Shown: one piece after another, positions 15,974 to 49,015 of the stretch | Layout: each line of letters opens with the position of its first letter | Numbering within the stretch: position 1 is the first letter of the stretch | Assembly: GCA_029762625.1 (NCBI GenBank) | Contig: JARVGI010000001.1 | Span: 186,001 to 250,000, forward strand | Direction: 5' to 3' | From: Methanomicrobiaceae archaeon | GTDB lineage: Archaea; Halobacteriota; Methanomicrobia; Methanomicrobiales; Methanomicrobiaceae | Length of the DNA: 64,000 bases | Position numbers and translations under genes: made by a program | Notes under the pieces: generated by a model | Databases searched by the model: none | What the model was told of the DNA's origin: nothing | Seen by the model: the letters and a program-made list of their open reading frames with translations, nothing else

Positions 15974-16122
15974 TGGTGCAGTACTCTTGCCGCCCTGTAC
16001 GCATAAAGTGCGATGAATGGATAACCTGCGGGGATTTCGGGAGGTTATTTCTCCTCGAAGGAAAAATAATAATGATTATTTGTCCTTTCCCACCATGCAT
16101 CGACATCCGGAGGTCATGAACA

Positions 16123-17079
16123 CTGGCACAACTGCTCTTTGAACTTTCCGGGGAGCACCCCGACCTGCCGTTCGCGGAACTGGAATGTGTCGGCCGGATC
16201 CTCGACCGGAAGCCACAGGTCGCGGTCGCTGAATGCCCTGAACCGGGCGCAACGGCGCGGCTGGCCCTCAGCCACGTGGTGATGGAGTACCTCGGGGAAT
16301 GTTCGGCTGCGGCGTCCTCCCTTTGGGAACTGCTCAGGGATCTCGGGATTGCGACCGACCGGCCGTTTGCGGGGAGGGCGAAAAAGATCCACGGGACGGC
16401 GATGGACGCCTCCCAGCTCGATATCGAACGCATGATCGGCACCATGATCGACGGTCCGGTCAGCCTCTCCCGCCCCGAGGAGGAATACCGCGTGGTCTGT
16501 TCGGACGACCGCTGCTATGTGGGAAAGGTCATACGCAGGATCGACCGGGGCGATTTTGCCTACCGCAACCCCATGCGCCGCCCGTTTTTTCACCCCGGCG
16601 TGATGATGCCCGTCACTGCGCGGGCGTTGGTGAACCTCTCGCTCGTCGGGCGGGGCGACCTCCTTTTCGATCCCTTCTGCGGGACGGGAGGCGTGCTGCT
16701 CGAGGGGCGCCTTGTCGGAGCGCGGGTTCTGGGCAGCGACGCGGAGGAGGCGATGATCGCCGGGAGCCGGACAAACCTCCCCGAGGCGGACCTGTTCCTC
16801 GCCGATGCGACCGCAATGCCGGTCCGGGACGATTCCATCGATGCGGTGGTGACCGACCTGCCGTACGGCCAGTCGGTGCGGATACGCGCCGTGAATATGG
16901 AGCGCCTCTATGCACGGTCACTTGCAGAGATACGGAGGGTACTCAAGGAAGGGAGCCGGGCGGTGGTGGTCACCCACCAGGAAATCCCCGCGATTGCCGA
17001 AGAATACTTTGAAATTACCGGGATTTTCCGTCAGCGCGTGCACAAGAGCCTGACGCGCAGAATTATGGTGCTTCAGTGA
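16123..17079 (+). CDS. tRNA (guanine-10-N2) methyltransferase, TIGR01177/Trm-G10 type, apparent CTG start
   Basis: A 318-residue THUMP-class methyltransferase. Conserved N-terminal residues (LLFELSGEHPDLPFAELECV) are read only from codon 16123 onward; the in-frame stop TGA is at 16117-16119 and no ATG, GTG or TTG occurs before GTG/GTG/ATG at 16270-16278. A perfect GGAGGT (16109-16114) stands 8 bases before CTG 16123, the ideal distance, so CTG is the likely start. The SAM-binding loop DPFCGTGGVLLEG and catalytic VTDLPYGQS are intact. In archaea this enzyme makes m2G/m22G at tRNA position 10. A single-base error in the sequence is the alternative explanation. Confidence 0.85.
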   Translation: MAQLLFELSGEHPDLPFAELECVGRILDRKPQVAVAECPEPGATARLALSHVVMEYLGECSAAASSLWELLRDLGIATDRPFAGRAKKIHGTAMDASQLDIERMIGTMIDGPVSLSRPEEEYRVVCSDDRCYVGKVIRRIDRGDFAYRNPMRRPFFHPGVMMPVTARALVNLSLVGRGDLLFDPFCGTGGVLLEGRLVGARVLGSDAEEAMIAGSRTNLPEADLFLADATAMPVRDDSIDAVVTDLPYGQSVRIRAVNMERLYARSLAEIRRVLKEGSRAVVVTHQEIPAIAEEYFEITGIFRQRVHKSLTRRIMVLQ

Positions 17080-38432: not shown

Positions 38433-39458
38433 ATGTCGCGGGGAAAGGAAATTATCGAGGCCCTCAGGACACTGGCGGACAGGAACTACACGTTCATGCA
38501 CATCTGCGGCACCCATGAGGCGTCCATCGCCCGGTCAGGGCTGCGCAGCGTGCTGCCCGACAATCTCACGATCGTCATGGGGCCGGGCTGTCCTGTCTGC
38601 ATCACGCCGCAGGGTGAGATCGATGCCGCACTCGAACTGGCGGAGAAAGACTGCATTCTTGCCACCTACGGCGACCTCCTCCGGGTTCCGGGGTCAGAGG
38701 GATCGCTTGAGTCCTGCGGGGGCGAGGTGCGGGTGGTGCAGGGCGTGCACAAGGCCGTGGAGATCGCGGAGAAGACCGACCGCGAGGTGGTCTTTCTATC
38801 GGTGGGATTCGAGACTACGGCACCCACCGTCGCCGCCACTATCCTCCAATCGCCCCCGGAGAATTTCAGCATCCTGAGCCTCCACCGGCTCGTTCCCCAG
38901 GCGATGCAGTGGCTGCTGGAGCAGGGGGAAGCGCAGCTGGACGGGTTCATGCTGCCGGGCCATGTCTGCGCCGTGATGGGCTACGAGGAATATGAGAAGT
39001 TCCCCGTTCCGCAGGTGGTAGCGGGTTTTGAGCCCGAAGACATCCTGCTCGGCCTGCTGATGCTCGTCAACCAGGTCCGCGAGGGGAGGGCGGAGGTGGA
39101 GAACGCCTACCCGCGGGTCGTCTGCAGGGAAGGCAATGTCAGGGCAAAGGAACTCATGTATGAAGTGTTCGAGCCCTGTGACGCGGAATGGCGGGGGTTT
39201 CCGGTCATCCCCCAATCAGGCCTGCGGTTGAAAGAGCAATTCTCGGCGTATGATGCCCGGAAGAAATTTGATGTGGAAATCCGGCACGTGGACACGCACT
39301 CGGCCTGCATCTGCGACCAGGTGCTGCGCGGCGTGGCACGGCCCACCGACTGCAAACTCTTCGGCACGGCGTGCACGCCCCGGAAACCGGTGGGCGCATG
39401 CATGGTGAGCCACGAGGGCGCATGCAAGATATGGTACCTCTACCAGAGGAACCCCTGA
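38433..39458 (+). CDS. hypD: Hydrogenase maturation protein HypD
   Basis: A 341-residue iron-sulfur protein that, with HypC and HypE, assembles the Fe(CN)2CO group of [NiFe] hydrogenases. Diagnostic stretches are FMHICGTHEASI (C25), MGPGCPVCITPQGEID, and the C-terminal cysteine set around DTHSACICDQVLRG and CKLFGTACTPRKPVGACM. It is solitary here; hypC/E are elsewhere. A TATA-like element (GTATATTT, 38394-38401) gives a short leader. Confidence 0.97.
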   Translation: MSRGKEIIEALRTLADRNYTFMHICGTHEASIARSGLRSVLPDNLTIVMGPGCPVCITPQGEIDAALELAEKDCILATYGDLLRVPGSEGSLESCGGEVRVVQGVHKAVEIAEKTDREVVFLSVGFETTAPTVAATILQSPPENFSILSLHRLVPQAMQWLLEQGEAQLDGFMLPGHVCAVMGYEEYEKFPVPQVVAGFEPEDILLGLLMLVNQVREGRAEVENAYPRVVCREGNVRAKELMYEVFEPCDAEWRGFPVIPQSGLRLKEQFSAYDARKKFDVEIRHVDTHSACICDQVLRGVARPTDCKLFGTACTPRKPVGACMVSHEGACKIWYLYQRNP

Positions 39459-47948: not shown

Positions 47949-48175
47949 TGGCACAGTATGATTGCATCGGGAACTACTTTAGAATATTGATGACGGATGC
48001 CGAAAACGGCTACATCTGGCGTTACGGAGAAATTCAGCCCCATGGAATATCCTGATGCAGTTGGGGGGCCGCTTCGTCCGTTCAGAACAGAAAACTACTA
48101 TGCAACGCTCCACCAACACACCTGTACTGGATAGATCCGTGTTCCCGGAAGGAACACCGTGCAGGAGGAACCACC

Positions 48176-49015
48176 ATCTCATCACCCCCCTACTACGCAC
48201 AAGACGGATTCGAACTCTACCTTGCCGACTGCACCAGCTGCATGGAAGAACTCCCCGAAGGTTCGGTGGATCTTGTATTTGCCGATCCCCCTTATAATCT
48301 CTCCAACGGGGGATTCACCTGTCATTCGGGGACGAGAGTGCCGGTGCACAAGGGAGACTGGGATGTGAGCAGCGGCGCCGAAGAGGATTTTGCCTTCCAT
48401 CTGGCATGGATCAACACCTGCCGGCGTGTGCTCAAGGCGGACGGATCCATCTGGATCAGCGGCACCTATCATTCGATCTACGCGTGCGGCTATGCTTTGC
48501 AGGTCGCGGGGTTCCACATTCTCAACGACATCTGCTGGTTCAAACCGAACGCACCCCCGAACCTCAGCGGGAGGTACTTCACCGCCAGCCACGAGACCCT
48601 CATCTGGGCCCGCAAGAACGCCGAAGGCAAACACACCTTCAACTACGATGCCATGAAATCCGGCGACTGGCACGAGGCGGACATGCTCAAGCGGGAAGGA
48701 AAACAGATGCGATCGGTCTGGAGCATCCCTGCTCCCAGACCGGGAGAGAAGGCACACGGAAGACACCCCACCCAGAAACCCCTGCTCCTGCTGCAGCGCA
48801 TTCTCAGTGCCTGCACACATGAGGGGGACTGCGTCCTCGACCCATTCACCGGGAGTTCGACAACGGGGCTTGCGGCGTATGCAATGCACCGCAGGTTCAT
48901 CGGCATCGACAGCGAACAGGCGTACCTCGATCTTTCGATCAGGCGCTTCGAGGATCTGCAGCAGAGTCGCGTTGGTCAGGAAGGCGAGGAAACGCGGCCG
49001 CAAGGGCCGGTGTGA
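48176..49015 (+). CDS. Beta-class DNA adenine methyltransferase, apparent ATC start
   Basis: A methyltransferase of about 279 residues. Motif IV DPPYNLSNGGF and motif I region DCVLDPFTGSSTTGLAAYAM occur in that order (IV before I), so beta class; DPPY favours N6-adenine. Residues SSPPYYAQDGFELYLADCTS before the first ATG (48242) are conserved in the family, yet no ATG, GTG or TTG precedes them in frame. AGGAGG (48163-48168) lies 7 bases before ATC 48176, ideal spacing for a start there; a point error or a leader-free start at 48242 are alternatives. No restriction enzyme is adjacent, so it looks solitary. Confidence 0.8.
   Translation: MSSPPYYAQDGFELYLADCTSCMEELPEGSVDLVFADPPYNLSNGGFTCHSGTRVPVHKGDWDVSSGAEEDFAFHLAWINTCRRVLKADGSIWISGTYHSIYACGYALQVAGFHILNDICWFKPNAPPNLSGRYFTASHETLIWARKNAEGKHTFNYDAMKSGDWHEADMLKREGKQMRSVWSIPAPRPGEKAHGRHPTQKPLLLLQRILSACTHEGDCVLDPFTGSSTTGLAAYAMHRRFIGIDSEQAYLDLSIRRFEDLQQSRVGQEGEETRPQGPV

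Follow-up and report, generated by a model that had tools for sequence, protein, structure and literature searches.

A conserved CTG codon as the probable start of a Trm-G10-like tRNA methyltransferase gene in Methanomicrobiaceae

Introduction

Translation from non-canonical start codons is known but rare, and few archaeal cases have been described. The AUU start of Escherichia coli infC is a deeply conserved weak codon that keeps output low or lets it be regulated, and to our knowledge archaea have no IF3, relying on aIF1 and aIF2. For infC, autoregulation by IF3 has been discussed (PMC13009471), and aIF1 is presented as a fidelity factor that acts against non-AUG complexes (PMC6237735). The archaeal case described here differs from infC in codon, gene and initiation factors.

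The closest precedent that we found is in Staphylococcus aureus, where infC, ccpN, cvfC1 and citZ have conserved AUA or AUU starts behind extended Shine-Dalgarno (SD) motifs; these starts are reported to give about 10% of AUG output, a figure that for ccpN rises to as much as 30% in rich medium (Nature Communications 2026, PMC13009471). Near-cognate codon, strong SD at proper spacing and conservation across species are common to those genes and to the case presented here. The Staphylococcus starts, however, are bacterial, AUU or AUA, and experimentally shown, whereas ours are archaeal, CUG or AUC, and read from sequence only. Nearer in phylogeny, the available part of a Ribo-seq study of Methanosarcina mazei gives CTG starts for 5% of unannotated sORFs (PMC11456600). 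That too is CUG initiation in a methanogenic archaeon, but it concerns short unannotated ORFs, with no comparative conservation given in that part, whereas the gene considered here encodes a conserved housekeeping enzyme. Our literature search found no paper on conserved non-canonical starts in the Methanomicrobiales, which is not proof of absence.

Results

The start region of the Trm-G10 gene

The DNA analysed, here called the window, is a stretch of 64,000 nucleotides from a Methanomicrobiaceae archaeon (part of contig C11 of genome G000). Its genus is represented by three genomes: G000, G001, which by identity and sequence is apparently DSDF01, 'Methanoculleus sp. SpSt-1212', and G002, apparently JAENYT01, BL5_bin.5. 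The features discussed are collected in Table 1.

Table 1. Positions of the features discussed, in window coordinates unless a genome and contig are given
Feature	Position	Strand	Basis or remark
SD motif GGAGGT	16109..16114	+	Sequence read; kept in G000, G001 and G002
ATG in another frame, TGA after 8 codons	16116..16118	+	CTG in the third species, hence not a conserved start
In-frame TGA closing the frame 5' of the gene	16117..16119	+	Kept in all three species
CTG, proposed start codon	16123..16125	+	Sequence and conservation in the genus
Trm11/Trm-G10-like tRNA (guanine-10) methyltransferase gene, predicted, 318 aa	16123..17079	+	Frame, profile, fold
GCA, lost canonical start	16126..16128	+	ATG or GTG here in other genera, GTG in the third species
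GTG, first canonical start codon	16276..16278	+	A start here means loss of the first 51 residues
SD motif AGGAGGA	48163..48169	+	Sequence, conservation
ATC, proposed start codon of DNA methyltransferase	48176..48178	+	Kept in three species
N6/N4 DNA methyltransferase (CcrM-like, PF01555), 279 aa	48176..49015	+	Profile searches
Usp-CBS gene pair (CBS-domain gene behind universal-stress-protein gene)	G000:C11:103357	minus	Loci L277-L303, L338-L382
gatD without canonical start	G000:C23:80252	minus	Lacking in all three genus genomes; loci L251-L276

The letters from 16109 to 16125 are GGAGGT C ATG A ACA CTG. As the first-pass annotation had it, the SD motif stands 8 nt before CTG 16123 (9 nt when counted from GGAGG), and the in-frame TGA lies between the two. 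From 16120 the gene's frame continues without interruption to its stop at 17079 and holds no ATG, GTG or TTG ahead of GTG 16276, which agrees with the earlier statement that the conserved stretch has no canonical start. In ATG starts the spacer after GGAGG ranges from 5 to 11 nt with a peak at 7, so that the 9 nt of the CTG falls inside the range while exceeding the optimum by 2 nt. The frequency of GGAGGT in 849 kb of G000 (both strands) is 4.8e-4 per base, from which the chance of finding it in a spacer window of seven positions is about 0.3%. CTG is one position off AUG, as is the ATC considered below; both are near-cognate codons. We conclude that CTG 16123, which the first-pass annotation had proposed, is very probably the start codon of the Trm-G10 gene and the best supported of the starts that can be predicted here.

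Conservation of the start across genomes

Aligning the locus in relatives, a check that the first-pass annotation had suggested, places the SD, the TGA and the CTG in all three genus genomes. The block GGAGGTC(A/C)TGAACACTGG is retained in both of the others: G001 (94% aa) is letter-identical to G000 from GGAGGT to CTG, and G002 (87% aa), which reads GGAGGTCCTGAACACTGGTG at the start region, keeps the TGA and the CTG but not the out-of-frame ATG 16116. Of the 17 positions in the core from SD to start, G000 and G002 share 16; in the alignment upstream of it they share 65 of 105 columns.

Outside the genus the start lies one codon downstream of the CTG. A family search gave 25 N-terminally resolved loci (6 further ones are paralogues or fragments), and in all 22 of those outside the genus query position 3 is ATG, as in 'ATG AAA CTG ATC TTT GAA'; in a set of named genomes the same position is ATG in 39 and GTG in 2 of 41 loci outside the genus. 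By eye, no GGAGG precedes the gene in other genera. Within the genus the codon after CTG is GCA in the first two species and GTG in the third. Since this is the position of the start in other genera, the CTG before it most likely took over from a canonical codon that the first two species have lost. It seems, on this comparison, that the genus gained an SD-bearing leader and that two species then lost the canonical codon. The third species may start at its GTG, in which case CTG would be functional in only two close species (94% aa), and the CTG could have been kept merely because the short block around it is kept.

Sequence alone cannot fix the position of a start among non-AUG codons, and ACA 16120, GCA 16126 or CTG 16132 might be used in place of CTG 16123, or several of them weakly. 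We give this a small chance: ACA and GCA are very poor initiators, CTG 16132 sits 18 nt after GGAGG, and CTG 16123 combines a workable spacing with conservation in all three species. Quite improbable, in our judgement, is a start at ATG 16116 (or ATG 16095) followed by a programmed frameshift into the gene frame. ATG 16116 does follow closely on GGAGGT, and the 8 codons that it opens overlap the CTG; the gap of 1 nt from GGAGGT, however, puts it outside the range of 5-11 nt after GGAGG, the third species has CTG in its place, and no slippery site was seen by eye.

Evidence that the N-terminus is translated

A start at GTG 16276, the first canonical codon, would leave the upstream frame untranslated, an outcome for which the first-pass annotation had left room. 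Codons 4-52, however, are strongly constrained at the protein level and kept in relatives. Between G000 and G002, 11 of these 49 codons differ synonymously and 4 nonsynonymously, and dN/dS over the stretch is 0.11-0.15 in the three genus pairs, similar to the 0.10-0.21 of the rest of the gene. By this measure the upstream codons are translated and purifying selection acts from codon 4 onwards. An alignment of 29 sequences shows LLFELSGEHPDLP as a conserved motif.

The structure model points the same way. Codons 4-52 build its first strands and helices (strand 2-8, helix 15-22, strands 25-30 and 33-38), residues 1-51 have a pLDDT of 93 or more in each ten-residue block, and residue 52, encoded by GTG 16276, falls within strand 50-61. 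The first 51 residues are thus modelled with confidence as an integral part of the Trm11 (Trm-G10) fold, and we regard a start at GTG 16276 as very improbable. The full-length model matches Trm11 (6zxw and 5e71) with a TM of 0.85-0.87, N-terminal domain included, and by sequence the relatives in the PDB are 6zxw, 6zxv and 5e71. The best NCBIfam family is TIGR01177, at 252.8 bits and so below its curated cut-off of 316.55 bits. The predicted product is a Trm11/Trm-G10-like tRNA methyltransferase, alike to the archaeal enzymes in whole-length fold and sequence and differing only in the start codon and in its score under the TIGR01177 cut-off. The first-pass annotation had spoken of the conserved N-terminus of a THUMP domain: the conservation holds and the fold is that of Trm11, but at E<=0.001 the protein has no Pfam THUMP match, and the THUMP label is partly our assumption, set beside the fold match.

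That the missing start is a base error or indel, as the draft or metagenome-assembled state of the genomes might suggest and as the first-pass annotation had considered, or that the gene is decayed, is scarcely credible, given that three separate assemblies share the arrangement and that the frame is intact and under purifying selection.

A second gene in the window

The first-pass annotation had pointed to a DNA methyltransferase gene at 48176 as being in the same situation with ATC, and the SD motif and the ATC are indeed present and kept in 3/3 genus genomes. The gap from AGGAGGA to the ATC is 6 nt, or 7 nt after GGAGG, which is the peak for ATG starts. In G000 and G002 there is no in-frame ATG, GTG or TTG from the upstream stop to ATG 48242, which is preceded by the conserved PYY..G..LY..DC stretch; G001 has some in-frame canonical codons 33-43 codons upstream of the ATC. 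In other genera all nine resolved intact loci start three codons upstream of the ATC, with ATG (8) or GTG (1), a count that omits a disrupted copy in G007, which had two entries. The case is weaker than that of Trm-G10, because the conservation of its SD region (14/16) is little above that of its flank (69/88).

In the region 5' of this gene, 48070-48120 is near-identical in all three species (ATGCAACGCTCC.CCAACACACCTGTA, in another frame) and is a candidate promoter or leader element; a promoter scan, of bacterial type while the host is archaeal, came back empty.

gatD and the Usp-CBS gene pair

The gatD frame runs through about 70 codons without ATG, GTG or TTG in both G000 and G002, and its first 30 codons hold none in G001. 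The GatD_N profile requires a start at or before the CTG at position 11. This CTG shares bases with the argH stop (CTGA), and 12 of 26 family loci have ATG in the aligned place. It is a candidate start, the alternative candidate being an ATC at position 7 (12 nt upstream). Two gatD loci of genus g9 (L257 and L258) are likewise without a canonical start, with an ATA close to the stop of argH.

An older case, spanning the order, is the CBS-domain gene that follows a universal-stress-protein (Usp) gene. In 69/69 loci GGTGGTGAG-N3 is followed by ATA (55), ATC (10), ATT (3) or ATG (1), so that the AUA/AUC/AUU context is found in 68 loci, from six families of Methanomicrobiales, and AUG in one. These loci comprise 27 of the family, 22 more (30 listed, of which 8 repeats of family genomes were dropped) and 20 chosen by hand from the same listing, mostly for other families; in all, 188 genomes had a match. 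Synonymous codons are frozen over the SD: the two Val codons within the GGTGGTGAG region are GTG in every one of the 69 loci, whereas 9-10 positions upstream Val is written with all four of its codons. The codon after the two GTG always has A as its third base, whatever the residue; it is followed by TAG or TAA in 55 loci and, in 1, by a TGA that creates AUG. In most loci the CBS start overlaps the stop codon of the upstream gene. Counted by eye, 17/27 family loci have no ATG, GTG or TTG between the AUH codon and the conserved D-Y-M motif. In other families many loci carry an ATG 3-7 codons downstream of it, which makes the use of AUA there less than certain.

Initiation machinery and genome screens

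A search with the pattern GGGNTNNNAACCC found one initiator-type arm, GGGCTCATAACCC with CAT, per genome, and ARAGORN confirmed tRNA-Met(cat) in G001 and G002. Further arms considered as altered initiators, among them GGGCTCAAAACCC, GGGCTCAGAACCC and GGGCTCACAACCC, were rejected, since ARAGORN predicts no tRNA for them at the loci scanned (18 of 30, and the window). One such initiator-like arm, GGGCTCAAAACCC, lies at 39023-39035 on the minus strand of the window, outside any tRNA predicted by ARAGORN. aIF1 is single, intact and nearly identical to that of other genera. Neither an altered initiator anticodon nor a divergent aIF1 was found in the genus genomes, and judged by the initiator tRNA and aIF1 the initiation machinery looks ordinary.

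Non-canonical starts were also sought in screens with a home-made gene finder, which covered up to 849 kb in G000, 400-800 kb in G002 and, as controls, 400 kb from three other genomes; the screens are noisy, and the controls gave no usable contrast. Without a filter for the onset of conservation, 152 pairs gave 13 identical SD-preceded ATC codons, second to ATG (35), most of them inside genes. At the onset of conservation, 326 G000-G002 pairs (849 kb and 800 kb) gave ATG 39, ATC 3, ATT 3, CTG 2 and ATA 1, with background codons at 5 or fewer. In these samples CTG is no more frequent than many other codons that follow an SD where conservation sets in, and, within the noise of the screens, the 326 pairs show no general surplus of non-canonical codons behind SDs beyond single genes. 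A second screen flagged 11 of 324 pairs, among which Trm-G10 alone was clear in our judgement. These results do not establish new start rules for the genus as a whole.

Two further candidates came from these genomes. An HD-domain gene with ATC in G002 (L305) was dropped, given that G000 (L306) has an in-frame GTG there; the 1-nt difference is possibly an error or a real shift. A surface protein with a signal peptide (G000:C23:26153-27451, minus strand) has an 8-nt SD, GAGGTGAT, before ATA in both G000 and G002, and is a lead only, with an in-frame TTG TTG 5-6 codons later.

The first-pass annotation had wondered whether the two cases in the window are a feature of the organism. Several genes of the clade do lack a canonical start, which speaks for the suggestion; against it, the machinery looks ordinary, the gene screens show no general enrichment, and at least one case is common to the whole order rather than peculiar to the organism.

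Discussion

The Trm-G10 start is, on the comparative sequence evidence, conserved, slightly surprising and ordinary in mechanism. In the reading that we prefer, with CTG 16123 as the start, GGAGGT would hold the 30S subunit so as to place the CUG in the P site, where the normal initiator tRNA (anticodon CAU) would initiate through a first-position mismatch. Methionine would presumably be inserted at low efficiency, so that we infer a CUG that is the codon actually used, read as Met, with output reduced. The same reading would fit ATC 48176. No change of genetic code and no new machinery are implied, and the gene is another archaeal example of the habit outlined above.

For the wider group, there is in our estimation an even chance that in the Methanomicrobiales a small number of genes are deliberately held under weak AUH or CUG starts, with Usp-CBS across six families and with trm-G10, gatD and the DNA methyltransferase having slid likewise in the genus of the window.

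Gene callers commonly accept ATG, GTG and TTG only, and such genes are therefore truncated or missed; a miscalled start would cost the tRNA methyltransferase 51 residues and shorten gatD by some 60-70. If our reading is true, these genes would be natural substrates on which to test how far the archaeal ribosome, policed by aIF1 and aIF2 and not by IF3, tolerates near-cognate codons, and they would let one ask whether weak starts tune expression or couple adjoining genes.
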